DNA of 64,000 nucleotides from Fluviicoccus sp. (GTDB lineage: Bacteria; Pseudomonadota; Gammaproteobacteria; Pseudomonadales; Moraxellaceae): NCBI RefSeq assembly GCF_030646115.1, contig NZ_JAUSMX010000018.1:1-64000 (forward strand), given 5' to 3'. Below are positions 18,749 through 55,753 of the stretch, piece by piece. Made by a program: the position numbers and the translations under genes. Position 1 is the first letter of the stretch. Each line of letters begins with the position of its first letter. The notes beneath the pieces are model-generated. The model did not search any database and had not been told where the DNA came from. It saw only the letters and a program-made list of their open reading frames with translations.

Positions 18749-18794
18749 ACCTTGGCGCTTCCGGAATTGACGGACGTACTGCTACAATAACCCC

Positions 18795-18955
18795 GTCATT
18801 GGGGAGTAGTCGCTGTCCGCGCCCTGCGGACAGGTACGTGTCAACATACTTGTTCCACCGAACATGGTACGTACAGCTTCGGCCTGACCAGACCTTTGAC
18901 CTGCCCGCTTCGCCTCTGGGTCGGCCGAAGCCTGTCAGGTCATGGGATTTTGTTG
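18795..18955 (+). ncRNA. yybP-ykoY (manganese) riboswitch
   Basis: Diagnostic GGGGAGTAG and GTACGTGTCAACATACTTGTTCCACCGAACATGGTACGTACAGCTTCGGCCTGACCAGACC, directly upstream of a UPF0016 gene. Confidence 0.92.
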
Positions 18956-21724: not shown

Positions 21725-22840
21725 ATGGGATCATTTTTCAAACGCCTCAGCACCCGCCTGCTCGCGTGTTGCCTGCTGGCGCTGTCTACGCCGGTGTTTG
21801 CCGCCTCTGATATCCTGGCGGCTGCAGAGGACCTCAAGCCTAACGAAAATGGCCTTCCCCCTCCACTGGAAAAGCCTTTGTATATTTCAGTCTGCTTTTT
21901 TGACTTTCAGGGCAAAAACGGCGACATCTACAGCCAGGCCAAGGATCTGGTGCTGATTGCCCGCCGCTGGAACGTCATTGTCGAACTCAAAGTGTTTACC
22001 GACGAGCGTATCACCGCCGAAAATTTCAAGGCGGGACAATGTGACGCCGCCGGAATTTCCACGTTACGCGCCCGCCAGTTCAACTCCTTCATGGGCAGTG
22101 TCGACTCCGTGGGCGGCGTACCGGATTACGCCGGTATGCGCCTGCTGATCCATACGCTGCTGGATCCGAAAATTGCACCCATGACCATTACCGGCAAGTA
22201 CCAGATCCTCGGCATCATGCCGATTGGCGGTGCTTATGTTCACGTCAATAACCGGCACATCGACTCGATTGAAAAGGCAGCAGGCAAGAAAATTGCCGTT
22301 CTGGACTGGGACAAGACCCAGACTGAAATCGTCAAGCGCATCGGTGCTCAACCCATCTCCGCTGACTTATCCAATATTGGCGGCAAATTCAACAACGGCC
22401 AGGTGGATATTGTTGTGATGCCTGCGCTGGCCTACCGCCCCCTCGAACTGTACAGGGGCCTGGGCGAGTATGGAGGCATTTACAAATTCCCGCTGGCGCA
22501 AATGTCCGCCAGCCTGGTGATTGACCGCGAACGCATCAAGAAGAAACTGCCGGATCTGGACGAAAAACTGAATATTTTCCGGGGCATTGCCAGCCAGTTC
22601 ATGGACCAGATGCTGGACCAGATATTCCGCATTCTCGATCGCACCGAAAAAGACATTCCGGACAAATACTGGCTGCCGCTGGAGAAAGGAAACGAGGACG
22701 GCTTCAAACGCATGATGCGTGAGGCCCGCATCCAGATGACCAAGGAAGGCTACTATGATCCGCGCATGATGAAATTATTGAAGAAAGTCCGCTGCAAGCA
22801 GAACCCGACCGACGCCGAGTGTTCACAACCGGAAGAATAA
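21725..22840 (+). CDS. putative periplasmic solute-binding protein, paralog 1 of 3
   Basis: Signal peptide; shared blocks VFTDERI.AENFKAGQCDAAGIST.RARQFN, IDSIEKAAGKKIAVLDWDK, FNNGQVDI. Confidence 0.85.
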   Translation: MGSFFKRLSTRLLACCLLALSTPVFAASDILAAAEDLKPNENGLPPPLEKPLYISVCFFDFQGKNGDIYSQAKDLVLIARRWNVIVELKVFTDERITAENFKAGQCDAAGISTLRARQFNSFMGSVDSVGGVPDYAGMRLLIHTLLDPKIAPMTITGKYQILGIMPIGGAYVHVNNRHIDSIEKAAGKKIAVLDWDKTQTEIVKRIGAQPISADLSNIGGKFNNGQVDIVVMPALAYRPLELYRGLGEYGGIYKFPLAQMSASLVIDRERIKKKLPDLDEKLNIFRGIASQFMDQMLDQIFRILDRTEKDIPDKYWLPLEKGNEDGFKRMMREARIQMTKEGYYDPRMMKLLKKVRCKQNPTDAECSQPEE

Positions 22841-22858
22841 AGGCAGTTTCCTACCTTT

Positions 22859-22882
22859 GCGGGACGCCGCCCGGCGTCCCGC
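22859..22882. terminator. strong GC hairpin between paralogs 1 and 2 (terminator or processing site; no U-tract)
   Basis: GCGGGACGCCG-CC-CGGCGTCCCGC. Confidence 0.5.
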
Positions 22883-22997
22883 AGTCACCCTAACGACGCC
22901 AAAACCTGTCAGAATGGCCAATTCCGATCGCCACGGCCCGGTCTATCTTGAACCGTACGCCGAAAATAATAATTTGCCTGTCCGCCGAGGATTCCCC

Positions 22998-24128
22998 ATG
23001 TTCAAGCGCCTTGCCGCCCGTCTGCCTGCCCTGTTTCGACCCTTGCTGCTGCTGCCGGTGCTGGCCATGCCGTTGGCCCCGGCCGCCCAAGCCACAGAAA
23101 TCATGGCCATTGCCAAGGACTTGAAGCCAGGCGAGAACGGTCTGCCGGCGCCGCTGGACAAGCCGCTGCACCTTTCCGTGTGCCTGTTTGACATCCTGGG
23201 CAAGAACGGCGAGTTGTATAACCGCGCCAAGGATCTGGTGCTGATTGCAAGGCGCTGGAACGTCTACACCGAAATCAAGGTCTTTACCGACGAACGCATT
23301 GCCGCCGAAAACTTCAAGGCGGGCCAGTGTGATGCGGCGGGAATTTCCACACTGCGCGCCCGCCAATTCAACAGCTTCATCGGCAGCATTGACGCCGTGG
23401 GCGCGGTGCCTTCCTACGAGCATATGCGCATCCTGCTGAAAACCCTGCTCGATCCGAAACTGATCCCCTTATCCATTACCGAGCCGTACCAGATTGTGGG
23501 CGTGCTGCCGGTGGGGGCGCTGTATGTGATGGTGCGTGACCGCGAGATCAACTCCATTGAGAAGGCGGCGGGCAAGAAGATCGCCGTGCTGGACTGGGAC
23601 AAGTCTCAGGCGGAAATGGTGCAGAAACTTGGCGCGCAACCGGTGGCGTCGGACATCACCAACTTTGCGGGCAAGTTCAATAATGGCCAGGTGGACATCA
23701 TTGCCGCCCCAGCCATCGCCTTCCGCCCCATGGAGCTTTACAAGGGGCTGGGAACCACAGGGGCCATCTACAAATTTCCGCTGGCGCAGATTACCGGCAG
23801 CCTGGTCATCAACCGCGAACGCCTGCGCGCCAAGCTGCCGGACCTGGACCAGAAAATGCTGAGCCTGCGCGCCGTGGCGTTGCAATTCATGGATGATTTC
23901 CTCGACGAACTCTTTACCTATGTCGACAAGCTGGAAAAGGATATTCCCGCCAAATACTGGATGGAACTGACGCCTGACGATGAAAAGCGCTACAAGGAAA
24001 TGATGCGGGAAGCCCGTATCCAGATGACCAAGGCCGGTTACTACGACCCGCGGATGATGAAGGTCTTGAAGAAGGTGCGCTGCAAACTGGAGCCGTCCAA
24101 GGCCGAATGCAGCATGAACGATGAATGA
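22998..24128 (+). CDS. putative periplasmic solute-binding protein, paralog 2 of 3
   Basis: Same blocks as paralog 1; signal peptide MFKRLAARLPALFRPLLLLPVLAMPLAPAAQA. Start chosen from signal peptide. Confidence 0.82.
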   Translation: MFKRLAARLPALFRPLLLLPVLAMPLAPAAQATEIMAIAKDLKPGENGLPAPLDKPLHLSVCLFDILGKNGELYNRAKDLVLIARRWNVYTEIKVFTDERIAAENFKAGQCDAAGISTLRARQFNSFIGSIDAVGAVPSYEHMRILLKTLLDPKLIPLSITEPYQIVGVLPVGALYVMVRDREINSIEKAAGKKIAVLDWDKSQAEMVQKLGAQPVASDITNFAGKFNNGQVDIIAAPAIAFRPMELYKGLGTTGAIYKFPLAQITGSLVINRERLRAKLPDLDQKMLSLRAVALQFMDDFLDELFTYVDKLEKDIPAKYWMELTPDDEKRYKEMMREARIQMTKAGYYDPRMMKVLKKVRCKLEPSKAECSMNDE

Positions 24129-24243
24129 TTACCGACTGTCCTGACACCTTAAAACCGGCAAGCTGGCCAATGTCAAAACCGGCAGCCGGTATTAAACTTG
24201 TCACCACGTTGTCCCGAAACATAACCGGCGGATTATCCCTAAA

Positions 24244-25308
24244 ATGCGAATGACCTCCCTTAAAAAAATAGCCTTGCTGTCCTCCCTGCTGCTGCCGCTG
24301 CAGAGCCTGGCCGCCGAACCGGTCGGACTGCCTGCCATGAAGCCGCTGGCGAAGCCGATCACCATCAAGTTCTGTATTTTCGACATCATGGGCACCAGCG
24401 GCGACGCCTTCAGCTATGCCAAGGACCTGGCGCTAGAAGCCAAGAAATGGAATATCAATGCTGAAATGCGGGCCTACACCGATGAACGCGTGGCCGCCGA
24501 AGACTTCAAGGCCGGCCAGTGTGACGGCGTGGCCATCTCCACCATGCGCGCCAAGCAATTCAATTTCTTCATCGGTAGCATCGACTCACCCGGCTCCCTG
24601 CCCACCTGGCGCCATGTCCGCGAACTGATTTCCCTTCTGGCCAACCCAAAAATGGCGCCGCTGACCATCAGCGGCCCCTATCAGGTGGCAGCCGTGATCC
24701 CGCTGGGCGGAGCCTATGTGATGGTCAACGACCGCCAGATCGACTCCATCGAAAAGGCTGCCGGCAAGAAGGTGGCCGTGCTGGACTTCGACAAGGCGCA
24801 GGCCAAGATTGTGCAAGGTCTGGGTGCGCAACCTGTGGCCTCTGACATTACCAATTTTGCGGGCAAGTTCAACAACGGCCAAGTGGACATTATTGCCGCG
24901 CCCGCCGTTGCCTTCAAACCGCTGGAGCTTTACAAAGGCCTGGGCACCAAGGGCGCAATTTTCCGTTTCCCGCTGGTGCAGATTACGGCGACCGTACTGA
25001 TCCGCCGCGACAAATTCATCAAGGATGTGCCCGATTTTGATGACCGCGTGCAGAAGATGCGCGAATTCGCCTTCACCAAGCTGGATGTGGTGGAGCGCAT
25101 GGTCAATGCCAGCGAGGCCGACATTCCCAAGAAGTACTGGATGGACCTGACCAAGGCTGATCAGGACAAGTACACCCGCCTGATGCGCGAAGTGCGTATC
25201 AACATGACCAAGGAAGGCATGTACGACAAGAAAATGATGAGCCTGATGAAGAAGGTCCGCTGCAAGATAGAGCCCACGAATGAGGAGTGCTCACAGAACC
25301 TGGAATAA
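24244..25308 (+). CDS. putative periplasmic solute-binding protein, paralog 3 of 3
   Basis: Same blocks; signal peptide MRMTSLKKIALLSSLLLPLQSLAAEP. Confidence 0.85.
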   Translation: MRMTSLKKIALLSSLLLPLQSLAAEPVGLPAMKPLAKPITIKFCIFDIMGTSGDAFSYAKDLALEAKKWNINAEMRAYTDERVAAEDFKAGQCDGVAISTMRAKQFNFFIGSIDSPGSLPTWRHVRELISLLANPKMAPLTISGPYQVAAVIPLGGAYVMVNDRQIDSIEKAAGKKVAVLDFDKAQAKIVQGLGAQPVASDITNFAGKFNNGQVDIIAAPAVAFKPLELYKGLGTKGAIFRFPLVQITATVLIRRDKFIKDVPDFDDRVQKMREFAFTKLDVVERMVNASEADIPKKYWMDLTKADQDKYTRLMREVRINMTKEGMYDKKMMSLMKKVRCKIEPTNEECSQNLE

Positions 25309-46956: not shown

Positions 46957-47090
46957 TCCCTCTCCCCTTGTGGGAGAGGGTTAGGGAGAGGGGTGCGGAA
47001 AGCGGCCCGGACACACCGGCAGCCCAAGCGCCACCGCCGTACCCCTCTCCCCGGCCCTCTCCCACAAGGGGAGAGGGAGATTTACCCCTT
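46957..47090. repeat. large imperfect inverted repeat (REP/BIME-like)
   Basis: CCCTCTCCCCTTGTGGGAGAGGGTTAGGGAGAGGGGT ... ACCCCTCTCCCCGGCCCTCTCCCACAAGGGGAGAGGGA. Confidence 0.8.
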
Positions 47091-51170: not shown

Positions 51171-51317
51171 GCTATAATCGGACAAGAATCCTATCACCGG
51201 TGCCATCATCAGCTTCAACAGCACCCTCACCACCATCCGCCAGCTTCACCTCAGCCCGCCGGACCCGCAGCGCCTCACCGCCCTCTGCGGCCCGTTGCAC
51301 TAACACCTGAAACTGAT
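51171..51317 (+). pseudogene. decayed duplicate of the phoH/ybeZ promoter and 5' end
   Basis: 51211-51317 aligns without gaps to 54668-54774 with 7 mismatches in 107 bp; start TTG is TTC and a GAA codon is TAA. Confidence 0.9.
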
Positions 51318-51318
51318 G

Positions 51319-51350
51319 AGGCTTTATTTCGCTCAGGTTTTATTTCGCTC
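51319..51350. repeat. 16-bp tandem repeat at the phoH-fragment/island junction
   Basis: AGGCTTTATTTCGCTC / AGGTTTTATTTCGCTC. Confidence 0.8.
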
Positions 51351-51708
51351 CCGGTTTTCTGCTGCGGTCCAAAATCGCGCGAGCATTTTCATCGCCATTT
51401 TGTAATTGTCCAGACACTGTCTGGACAATCTCTGGATAGCCCAGATAATACCGTCGAAAGAGATGAAAGTTAGATCGTGATGCGCCAGCGACACCGGATG
51501 CTTGCAGTTGCGCAGCTAAACGTTTGTAAAGACCTTCTCCATAAACGGCCCGATCCTGGCCGTTTTGCTCATACTCGAACAGGTAGGCCCCTATCAGCCA
51601 ATTGCGTAGCGTCAGGGCAACATTGACCTGCTTTTGGGCTTGTTGCTGGAAGTAGCGATTGGTTTCGGCGATGCTGGTGACCAGAGCCTTGAAGTCGTTG
51701 TGTGTCAT
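51340..51708 (-). pseudogene. truncated DUF1016 N-terminal (YhcG-like) protein
   Basis: 122 aa matching the DUF1016_N helical domain (NRYFQQQAQKQVNVALTLRNWLIGAYLFEYEQNGQDRAVYGEGLYKRLAAQL); the C-terminal nuclease part is missing. Confidence 0.75.
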
Positions 51709-51878: not shown

Positions 51879-52976
51879 TTAGACAGACTCAAACAGGCCA
51901 TTTTCCGTTTCTTGCACAAGGATCATGAAATCGATATATAGGGAGACCACTTCGTCTTCCGCATTAACTCCCCAGAATGCGGGATATGCACCGTCACCAA
52001 AACCACTTGTGGATATGACGCAGTCGTCTTCACCTGTCATTGATAATAATTCTGGCTTACCGGAAAGGCACCATTTATTAAAGATCCGTCCTTTTTTGAT
52101 ACGGCTTAAACCCATGAGATTACCGACATCGAAAATGGCTAAATTGCCGGCATCTACGCCATAAACACCATTGCCACTTGGTGTATTAGCCGCATACCAT
52201 TTAACTGGTTGCTCGCTATCATTAAACCTTACTCGAATACCAGCCACTCGGTTATGAATTGTTACGGTTTCAACAGGATATTCCCCTGGGTTCACCTTTC
52301 TTTGCAGAGGCTCAAAGTCATAAATGTCATAGCCGAAATCTAAAATCCCAAGCACCCCTGAGCTGATTCGAAGCTTTCCGATCCGCTCTAGTTTTGCCAC
52401 TCCTTCATCTAAATTCGGAATCTTGATGTTACGTTCTGCTTGAAAAAGCGTGTTTTCATTGAATTCTATATGATCCTCCTTGTCCATGAAAGGAGCATCA
52501 GAGATACTTAAAGATAGGATGTCTGCATGTTTGTCAGTGTCAACAACAGGGCTCTTTGGAGGATGAAAAAGAGAAGATATTGCTGCTATTTTCCAACCTT
52601 TCTCTGTCTCATTTTCAAGATCATAGACGTGATATTTTGATGACTTAAGCGTCTCTTCGTAAATCTCTGTGAATACGCTGGCAACGTTGCCTTGAATTTC
52701 GCATTCTGTGATTTTTTCTATATTGGGGTTGAAATCAGCTTGCGAGCCAAATGAATTTCTAGATCCCGAACTACTCCCAGCAATAAAATTAGCCCTATCA
52801 ACATCTGCTATAAGATCTCCCCAATAGTCAAAATCCACATCATTGCCCATTTTTCTTTGGGCTTTTGACCATTGATCATACCAATGAGAAATAAACGCCT
52901 TGACCCTACCTTCAGGAGAATCAATCACATCACCGTATTTATCGTTTTTCTTGAAGAAATCAATGATTTTTTTCAT
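51879..52976 (-). CDS. DUF4241-like protein with N-terminal NTF2-like region, probable immunity-type protein
   Basis: C-terminal SGVLGILDFGYDIYDFEP...VAGIRVRFNDSEQPVKWYAA...YGVDAGNLAIFDV...GDGAYPAFWGVNAEDEVVSLYIDF; lower GC than surroundings. Confidence 0.7.
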   Translation of the reverse strand: MKKIIDFFKKNDKYGDVIDSPEGRVKAFISHWYDQWSKAQRKMGNDVDFDYWGDLIADVDRANFIAGSSSGSRNSFGSQADFNPNIEKITECEIQGNVASVFTEIYEETLKSSKYHVYDLENETEKGWKIAAISSLFHPPKSPVVDTDKHADILSLSISDAPFMDKEDHIEFNENTLFQAERNIKIPNLDEGVAKLERIGKLRISSGVLGILDFGYDIYDFEPLQRKVNPGEYPVETVTIHNRVAGIRVRFNDSEQPVKWYAANTPSGNGVYGVDAGNLAIFDVGNLMGLSRIKKGRIFNKWCLSGKPELLSMTGEDDCVISTSGFGDGAYPAFWGVNAEDEVVSLYIDFMILVQETENGLFESV

Positions 52977-52999: not shown

Positions 53000-53122
53000 A
53001 CCTAACTACCCGTAAGGCGCAAGCACCCACCAACAAAATAAACAAAAACTCAGTAATCACTGAATTCAAAAATAACACAATAATTGGCTGGGTGCTTGTC
53101 GCACTTGACGCGCAAGTTAGGC
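53000..53122 (-). other. integron attC recombination site
   Basis: Minus strand: R'' GCCTAAC ... R' GTTAGGT; L'' GTCAAG(T)GCGAC pairs with L' GCGCCTTAC leaving extrahelical bases on one arm only; then a 10-bp CAAGCACCCA/TGGGTGCTTG stem and an AT-rich terminal loop. It begins at the stop codon of the Sel1 ORF. Confidence 0.87.
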
Positions 53123-54300
53123 TATTTATTAAATCCTGACAATGCAACCTTTGCTTGCTCATATCCTAACTCTGCTGCCTGCTTAAACCATTTAACAGCT
53201 TGAACTATATTTATGCTTCCACTTTTTCCTTCTTTATATATATTTCCTAAACTATACATTGCTTCTGGAGTCCCTTGCTCTGCTGACATCAAATAATAAC
53301 TAATGGCTTTTTTAATATCTTGCGAAACACCTAAACCATATTCATATTTATCAGCCAAGTTACACTGTGCGAATGCAAATCCTTGATCAGCCGCTTTTTG
53401 ATACCACGCTACAGCTTTAATATAGTCTTGCCGTACCCCTTTTCCATCCTGATATGCTAAACCAAGGCTATACTGCGCCGAATCTAACCCTTGCTTTGCC
53501 GCTAATTCATAGTACTCAAAAGCATTAGCAGCATTTTTTTCAACTCCCAAGCCTTGCGAATAGAAATAACCAAGTCTATTTTGCGCTATATCCAAACTAT
53601 TGGCCGCAGCAGAATACCATTTAAATGCCGTTACATAGTCTTGCTGAACACCATATCCTTTTTCATATAGAACACCTAAACAATATTGAGCCATTATTAC
53701 GTCTTTATCTGCTGCAAGTTCGTAATAATGTGCTGCTTGTTCATAGCTTTGATTAACTCCTAAACCATCTTCAAAACAACAACCCAACATATAATGAGCG
53801 TCTGAATTATCGCCTTTCGATGCATAATGAAATAACTCTACTGCTTTTAAATAATCTTGAGGTACTTCATCACCAAAAAAATACAAAACCCCTAAATGAA
53901 AAGCAGCTAAAAAACTACCTCTCTGGAAAGCCAACACCCACAACTCAATTGATTTTGTAAGATTTTTTTCAACCGAATGTCCTGTGTAACAGATAGTACC
54001 TAGCACAAATGGTGAGTTCTTATCACCTTCGGCTCGCTTGGCTTCTAAAAATTCAATACAATCATTTATATAGTCCTTACTATTTCTTTTGACAAAAGTA
54101 AGAAAGTTATTTTTATAACCATTATACTTAACTGGCCGTAATCCAGAGCCTCCTTCGTCCAAAAGTACGCAAAACACATCATCTCCAGTTAAGAAGCCAC
54201 TCACAATTGATGGAAACACTCCATAATTTGATAAAACTGCATCACCTTCCAAAACAGGAGATCCATCTTCATATAAAAAGTTATTTTCAGGTTTAAACAT
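53122..54300 (-). CDS. Sel1-repeat protein
   Basis: Many ~36-aa repeats such as AQYCLGVLYEKGYGVQQDYVTAFKWYSAAA; start chosen at MFKPENNFLYEDG. Confidence 0.9.
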   Translation of the reverse strand: MFKPENNFLYEDGSPVLEGDAVLSNYGVFPSIVSGFLTGDDVFCVLLDEGGSGLRPVKYNGYKNNFLTFVKRNSKDYINDCIEFLEAKRAEGDKNSPFVLGTICYTGHSVEKNLTKSIELWVLAFQRGSFLAAFHLGVLYFFGDEVPQDYLKAVELFHYASKGDNSDAHYMLGCCFEDGLGVNQSYEQAAHYYELAADKDVIMAQYCLGVLYEKGYGVQQDYVTAFKWYSAAANSLDIAQNRLGYFYSQGLGVEKNAANAFEYYELAAKQGLDSAQYSLGLAYQDGKGVRQDYIKAVAWYQKAADQGFAFAQCNLADKYEYGLGVSQDIKKAISYYLMSAEQGTPEAMYSLGNIYKEGKSGSINIVQAVKWFKQAAELGYEQAKVALSGFNK

Positions 54301-54415
54301 TATCATCCACCAAAAGCCTACACTTCGACGACACCTGTCGCCATAAATCAAATTCGCCTAGAAAAGATTGCCTTCCAGCGAGCTCCCTTTAGAATCAGAA
54401 ACTTAACCGCCAACT

Positions 54416-54437
54416 CCCCGGTAATTCCCCGGTAATT
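54416..54437. repeat. 11-bp tandem repeat
   Basis: CCCCGGTAATT x2, followed by a partial third copy. Confidence 0.7.
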
Positions 54438-54670
54438 CCCGGTTTTCAGCGACCGAAATCCAATGGCCGAAACACCATGAAAACTAGCAACACAGACACG
54501 CCTCGTCAACCCTGCCTGCTGCACTAACGGCGTCAGACTCTTAAAGCGCAATACCCGGCCACTTATCATTCCCCATACGCCCATCAACACCCAAAAACCC
54601 CGCTCCTCACCCCTCCCCACCTCAGCTATACTTCCCCCAAACAGCCCCCGCCCTCGGAGCCACCCCCAGC

Positions 54671-55753
54671 TTGAACACCACCCTCACCACCATCCGCCAG
54701 CTTCACCTCAGCCCGCCGGACCCTCAGCGCCTCACCGCCCTCTGCGGCCCCCTGCACGAACACCTGAAGCTGATTGAAAACCGCCTCGGCATCCGCATCC
54801 ATCAGCGTGGCCATTTATTCCACTTGCAAGGCCCCCTCACCGCCGTAATGCGCGCCGAACGCCTGCTCACCCAACTGTATAGCGACAGTGCCCTGATCCA
54901 CGAACTGACACCGGACACCATCCACCTCATGCTGCAAACCAGCCAGGACGACTCCGAATTGACCACCGAACCGCTTGTCGTTGAAGAGTCTCCGGCTGAA
55001 CCCGCCGCCGACTTCGCCCTGCGCACCCGCAAGGGCAGTGTCCACCCGCGCGGCGCCAACCAGCGCCAATACGTGGAAAACATCCTCAACCACGACATCA
55101 GCTTCGGCGTCGGACCCGCCGGCACCGGCAAGACTTACCTGGCCGTCGCTGCTGCGGTGGATCAACTGGAGCGCGATGAAATCCGCCGCATCCTGCTGGT
55201 GCGCCCCGCCGTCGAAGCCGGGGAAAAACTGGGCTTCCTGCCCGGCGACCTCACTGAAAAGATCAACCCCTACCTGCGGCCGCTGTACGACGCCCTCTAT
55301 GAAATGCTGGGCTTTGAGCGCGTGGCCAAGCTAATTGAGAAACAGGTGATTGAAGTGGCTCCCCTCGCCTACATGCGCGGCCGCACGCTTAACCACGCCT
55401 TCATCATCCTTGATGAAGGCCAGAACACCACACCGGAACAGATGAAGATGTTCCTGACCCGCCTCGGCTTCGGCTCACGGGCGGTGATTACCGGCGACAT
55501 TACCCAGGTGGACCTGCCGCGCGGCATCCAGTCCGGTCTGGCGCATGCCATCCGCGTGCTGGACAAGGTTCCGGGCATCCACATCACCCGTTTCACCAGC
55601 CGCGACGTGGTGCGGCACCCGCTTGTGCAGCATATTGTGGAAGCCTACGAGGCCTGGGACAAAAAGTCCGACGCCAAACCGGCCGGCCGCCCGCAACGCG
55701 TGAAAGCGGTGGTGGCGTCTGAATCCGAAGAAACCGGGGAGACACCAGCATGA
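54671..55753 (+). CDS. ybeZ: PhoH-like ATPase YbeZ (TTG start)
   Basis: FGVGPAGTGKTYLAVAAAVD, RPAVEAGEKLGFLPGDL, FIILDEGQNTTPEQMKMFLTRLGFGS. Confidence 0.96.
   Translation: MNTTLTTIRQLHLSPPDPQRLTALCGPLHEHLKLIENRLGIRIHQRGHLFHLQGPLTAVMRAERLLTQLYSDSALIHELTPDTIHLMLQTSQDDSELTTEPLVVEESPAEPAADFALRTRKGSVHPRGANQRQYVENILNHDISFGVGPAGTGKTYLAVAAAVDQLERDEIRRILLVRPAVEAGEKLGFLPGDLTEKINPYLRPLYDALYEMLGFERVAKLIEKQVIEVAPLAYMRGRTLNHAFIILDEGQNTTPEQMKMFLTRLGFGSRAVITGDITQVDLPRGIQSGLAHAIRVLDKVPGIHITRFTSRDVVRHPLVQHIVEAYEAWDKKSDAKPAGRPQRVKAVVASESEETGETPA

Follow-up and report, generated by a model that had tools for sequence, protein, structure and literature searches.

Integrons are usually described as one integrase, one attI site and one array of gene cassettes. 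The integrase, IntI, binds the folded bottom strand of a cassette's attC site and joins attC to attI, and expression of the first cassettes is driven from a promoter upstream of attI (Pc). Transcription of cassettes in Vibrio cholerae begins 65 bp upstream of attI (PMC3948777). Loci that have lost parts of this arrangement are also described. The locus reported here resembles sedentary chromosomal integrons with decayed intI in its attI, its attC sites of one family, its low-GC cassettes in one orientation and its intI pseudogene. It differs from them in that the genome carries at least 18 attI-like heads with a single intI remnant besides one stub, and in that these heads are scattered, each with one to few cassettes. 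It also resembles CALIN, which have attC without an integrase nearby, and cassettes at attG sites, which lie away from a main array. Pseudogenes of intI are common: a 2008 survey found that about one third of intI genes are pseudogenes and that one fifth of hosts have more than one intI (PMC2426708).

The window is the 64,000-nucleotide stretch of Fluviicoccus sp. DNA analysed here; it belongs to contig C14 of a fragmented assembly (39 contigs, 3.89 Mb). An earlier note, made from the letters of the window, had placed an integron attC site at positions 53000 to 53122 of the minus strand, and both its coordinates and its anatomy hold. Along that strand, the first half of the site runs from R'' (GCCTAAC, 53122-53116) through 7 nt to L'' (TCAAGTGCGAC, 53098-53110), a stem strand (AAGCACCC) and an AT-rich loop; after the loop come GGGTGCTT, L' (GCGCCTTAC, 53011-53020), a spacer and R' (GTTAGGT, 53006-53000). 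The R'' and R' core boxes are complementary over six Watson-Crick pairs and a G-T pair, and the stem joins 53090-53097 with 53021-53028. The Sel1 ORF closes with a stop codon whose last base is base 1 of R'', and the ATG of the following gene, which encodes a DUF4241 protein, lies at 52976, 23 nt past R'; the orientation of the site thus agrees with gene direction, as the note had held.

A DNA fold, which the note had called for, yielded the hairpin it described (-27.4 kcal/mol, z -6.8, matched by 0 of 200 shuffles). In this fold, the single unpaired C, T and A all lie on the L'' arm, a stem of 10 bp follows the L boxes, capped by a large loop that is AT-rich and ~60 nt or more long, and most of the central spacer is left unpaired apart from isolated pairs in the minimum-energy structure. 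The opposite strand folds at -24.1 kcal/mol (z -6.05). The strand used by IntI, the folded attC bottom strand, would be the + strand of the window. The site shares with class 1 attC of the aadA and OXA-2 types the R''/R' pair, the 7-nt spacer, an L'' of the TCAAG type, one-sided bulges and the bottom-strand logic; its loop is much longer than theirs, and it has three bulges where they have two.

Does such a hairpin qualify as a cassette recombination site? An arm scorer trained only on 11 attC arms from class 1 integrons ranked it first in the 64 kb, with a score (31.5) that narrowly exceeded the top hits of all 30 Markov controls, each 64 kb long (the highest, 30.7). The genome-wide search for further attC that the note had suggested matched eight more sites of the same ~124-nt type, giving nine with that of the window: C1:284492, C1:307576 (a half site), C1:307942, C1:308711, C33:214833, C7:142661, C7:143700 and C15:67750. 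These were matched with a covariance model, R1, built from six of the genome's attC sites; the score of the window site itself (144 bits) is that of a sequence that helped to build the model. The six-site alignment keeps 90.7% of pair cells, and four pairs are changed on both sides. Slid versions of the structure fail on this alignment, for which shuffle counts do not amount to a probability, the copies being related. An early, strict genome scan for R''/R' pairs gave only one true new site, since in arrays part of R' comes from the following cassette.

A second covariance model, R3, representing short class 1 attC and independent of the window site, had no match there. We attribute this miss to the long loop, since a genuine long-loop class 1 site, the attC of the blaIMP-1 cassette, obtained just 19 bits with the same model. 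An Rfam search of the window likewise returned no attC match, and the searches with R1 and R3 gave, between them, one attC in the window. The R''/R' pair, the three one-sided bulges, the long stem, the top rank in the window and the eight sister sites mark this hairpin as a genuine recombination site for gene cassettes. That any inverted repeat can fold, together with the miss by the short-attC model, would be the case for an ordinary intergenic hairpin or terminator with no tie to integrons. This idea, to which we give next to no credence, is refuted by the R and L boxes, the one-sided bulges, the covariation among sister sites, the orientation relative to the cassette and the adjoining attI.

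That attI belongs to a segment directly upstream of the Sel1 cassette. Positions 54318 to 54521 (minus strand) are 82% identical to C15:65890-65698 over 204 nt (BLAST, E 6.6e-53), a stretch that sits between a cassette and an intI remnant. Because the segment matches the attI/intI 5' region of C15, we read it as an integron head, made up of attI, a leader and a stretch that is conserved with the intI 5' end. By homology and position, attI adjoins the first cassette; its core, GGTGTCGTCGAAG|TGTAGGC, spans 54316..54335 (minus strand), with a putative crossover between 54323 and 54322. On the plus strand, 54477..54527 holds a 5' stub of intI (MKTSNTDTPRQPCLLH*), which shares 43 of 45 nt with the beginning of the C15 intI remnant and is then truncated; the window holds no intI sequence other than these first ~15 codons. 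The note's remark that no integrase was in view is correct for intact intI but overlooked this stub. A candidate Pc (54481..54509, minus strand) consists of TTGACG (54504-54509), 17 nt and TAGTTT (54481-54486), with TG-C just before the latter. The TTGACG-17-TAGTTT arrangement is conserved in heads of the window's type (type A, below), matches the consensus weakly and was not listed by a simple consensus promoter scan; from its sequence, we regard it as a promoter candidate.

The order of elements along the minus strand, as predicted from these matches, is intI stub, attI, Sel1, attC and DUF4241, which is that of a decapitated integron and not of a solitary attC. The note's view of two former cassettes joined by one attC in the right orientation, Sel1 and then DUF4241, stands; its label of a solitary or CALIN-like remnant does not, as the attI head and intI start adjoin the Sel1 cassette, and the IntegronFinder 2.0 default for CALIN is at least two attC with no integrase (PMC9024848), whereas the window has one attC. 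We also considered that IntI might have inserted a single cassette at an attG site in ordinary genomic sequence, which would make the attC a solitary one. Insertion at attG has been reported, as cited in PMC12901181 and PMC11023631, and would fit one attC in a window that lacks an integrase. We nevertheless judge it very improbable here: what adjoins the Sel1 cassette at its 5' junction is a conserved attI head that includes the first codons of intI, not ordinary genomic sequence, and a second cassette ORF comes after the attC.

We consider it likely, with good confidence, that the window attC belongs to the first cassette in a small chromosomal integron whose integrase has been lost. This is a known kind of site, and a decapitated integron a known kind of decay. 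In the live state, IntI would have used the folded bottom strand to recombine attC with attI, inserting or excising the Sel1 cassette. At present, the window cassettes would be immobile in cis, recombination being expected only with an integrase supplied in trans; the two cargo genes are probably still expressed in cis from the promoter region before attI. The crossover point, the promoter activity and the use of these sites by an outside IntI are what we infer from the comparisons above. Three results count against reading the locus as a decayed integron, namely that the short-attC model misses the site, that the attC models found no attC downstream of DUF4241 in the window and that the core of this type of attI reads G|TG and not G|TT; a fourth, the similar left limit of such heads, is taken up below.

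The two cassettes form an island at 51.8-54.4 kb in which GC drops from ~0.60 to 0.34-0.45. The first encodes a Sel1-repeat protein (53122..54306, minus strand, GC 0.36) and the second, also of low GC, the DUF4241 protein (51879..52976, minus strand). The island is bordered by a direct repeat of 120 bp of the phoH 5' end, 91% identical: the 5' end of intact phoH (phoH, 54671..55753; repeat, 54655..54774; both plus strand) is matched on the far side by a dead copy (51198..51317, plus strand) that has lost the start codon and has an in-frame TAA. A truncated gene for a DUF1016 N-terminal domain (51340..51708, minus strand) adjoins the dead copy. In Agitococcus, miaB directly precedes phoH, the two being immediate neighbours. 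A clean empty phoH site is not demonstrable, because the 217-aa gene to the left of the island had no relative among the other 37 genomes searched. At a second head locus (C3:53.7k), 146 bp of the 3' end of a neighbouring M16 peptidase gene is repeated inside the array (C3:53396-53540 and 54555-54700, 91%); this copy has CAGAGCAACA on both sides, followed by an apparent 3' half of an attC. One possible source of such gene-end repeats may be the import of DNA carrying a gene end together with an integron.

The attI-like heads in the genome number at least 18 and fall into two sequence types. A search with the window head defined five of type A: that of the window itself, C15:65.7k, C3:400, C33:211.5k and C3:53.7k. 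Besides its match to C15, the window head is 70% identical to C3:400-584 (E 1e-14), 85% identical to C33 over 47 nt (E 3e-8) and 73% identical to C3:53775-53859 (E 2e-5). Type B was searched with a model built from nine copies, which are among its 13 matches in the genome at E < 1e-3; nine of the matches lie in C23:1-27 kb. Within C23:1-27000, the nine heads are spread over the two strands amid ordinary high-GC host genes, and behind each of them lies a low-GC gene. Both arrays on C1 start with a type-B head (...AATTTGGTGTCGATATCAAAG|TTAGGC). No type-B head was found at E < 1e-3 in seven relatives.

Most heads lead into a foreign-looking gene, an ORF of GC 0.34-0.54 starting within 39 nt of 16 of the 18; for comparison, 11% of random positions have an ORF of GC <0.54 whose start lies within 150 nt. 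The two exceptions are C1:281k, which leads into an IS91-type element, and C3:400, at a contig end. With the short-attC model, canonical attC were seen after some heads (C15:67249, C33:213799, C23:19692 and C18:3030); 101 kb of other loci gave none. All long-loop attC seen lie downstream of a head in the correct orientation, a count that joins C3 and C7 on the strength of a repeat common to their contig ends and suggesting that the head at C3:400 leads the attC pair on C7. This short tandem repeat, translated as MFQ repeats at one of the two contig ends and as LKH repeats at the other, is common to the end of C7 (143988) and the start of C3. Several arrays have a common distal tail (C7:142290 on the minus strand, C15:69809, C15:72222 and C15:129723), which is missing from the window; it has the form (C)CTAAC-N6-TATAAGGAACCTCCCC, continues for 70-185 bp and resembles a 3' conserved segment. 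Head (GGGTTGACG) and tail (CGTCAACCC) also share a 9-nt inverted match, which was rejected as a pair of transposon ends, as the tail homology extends further and the match is near chance.

The note had proposed searching the genome for intI. No intact integrase was found in the assembly, and beyond the window stub the search returned the C15 remnant, the sole recognizable one in the genome; intI is absent at the other 16 of the 18 heads. The remnant is a 187-aa ORF that matches positions 1-93 of TIGR02249 and then the C-terminal ~22 positions in one frame, so that the catalytic core is missing; it is 50-54% identical to IntI of family members. A candidate at C1:281112 was dismissed, since its TIGR02249 score fell below the cut-off, XerA, XerC and XerD matched about as well, and an IS91 transposase adjoins. 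This XerC-like tyrosine recombinase and the IS91-family transposase (C1:281112-283213) are inserted between a type-B head and an attC-bearing cassette.

How did so many heads come to lack an integrase? Our default account is that several integrons were duplicated or imported and that intI was lost each time, given how common intI pseudogenes and multiple intI genes per genome are in the survey cited above. Dispersal of the heads would then reflect integrons that were copied or imported and later lost intI. Independent decay of intI is less easily squared with the type-A homologies, which have a common left limit near GGTTGACGA, close to the -35-like box. This limit, the number and two types of heads with an intI remnant adjoining one of them, and the low-GC ORF close behind 16 of the 18 would all suit a family of intergenic repeats that cassettes use as multi-copy landing pads, an integrase acting in trans, with one occupied pad in the window. 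So would a relative, Agitococcus sp., with intact intI and two orphan heads. We think this explanation unlikely, as none of the 13 type-B matches was seen to be an empty pad, C15 links a head to intI, and the window head carries the intI-coding stub. For this Moraxellaceae lineage, we put forward only tentatively that the promoter-attI head may itself be a dispersed unit or landing pad, many heads across the chromosome each expressing one or a few cassettes of their own, with one integrase, intact in Agitococcus and dead in the window genome, acting in trans.

The relatives supply context for decay of an integron, our preferred reading of the window, and for these suggestions. The window attC type is present in seven other genomes of the family, and its motif also occurs in Agitococcus lubricus, Agitococcus sp. 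and other Moraxellaceae records; three of the nine motif records are short metagenome contigs binned as other phyla, possibly in error. No viral contig matched in the motif scan for attC of the window type. Of 119 family genomes, 12 have an intact IntI. One relative, Agitococcus sp. G019, carries intact intI and its attI on contig C11, and also two attI without intI, on its contigs C47 and C20, each of them before attC sites. The attI of a relative with intact intI ends GGTGTCTAATACTAAG|TTAGGG and resembles the heads described here. In relative G046, a Sel1 homologue lies between two attC sites, which supports the cassette status of Sel1.

As far as the literature searched extends, with subscription journals mostly outside it, so many orphan attI heads in one genome are undescribed. 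At least 18 heads without a working integrase suggest that cassettes, and perhaps entry sites, spread and persist without a local recombinase, and such loci are easily overlooked by tools that seek intI and clustered attC. The window locus differs from CALIN in its attI head, its intI stub and its one attC rather than at least two, and from attG-site cassettes in that its 5' junction is a conserved head. The head sequences provide a concrete set for testing the use of attI in trans and the origin of orphan heads. If true, the landing-pad reading would describe an integron system in which a single recombinase serves many entry points.

Other features of the sequence were recorded as well. The sole Rfam match in the window is a manganese (yybP-ykoY) riboswitch at 18789-18933 (78.3 bits). 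Stretches of ~0.6-1 kb within 21803-25295 of the window are repeated at 67-71% identity and are related to C14:67001-67797. A partly palindromic repeat of ~125 bp is dispersed between host genes (window 46957-47082, C15:64384, C14:78776 and C37:73561), its copies being 76-88% identical and present in both orientations.
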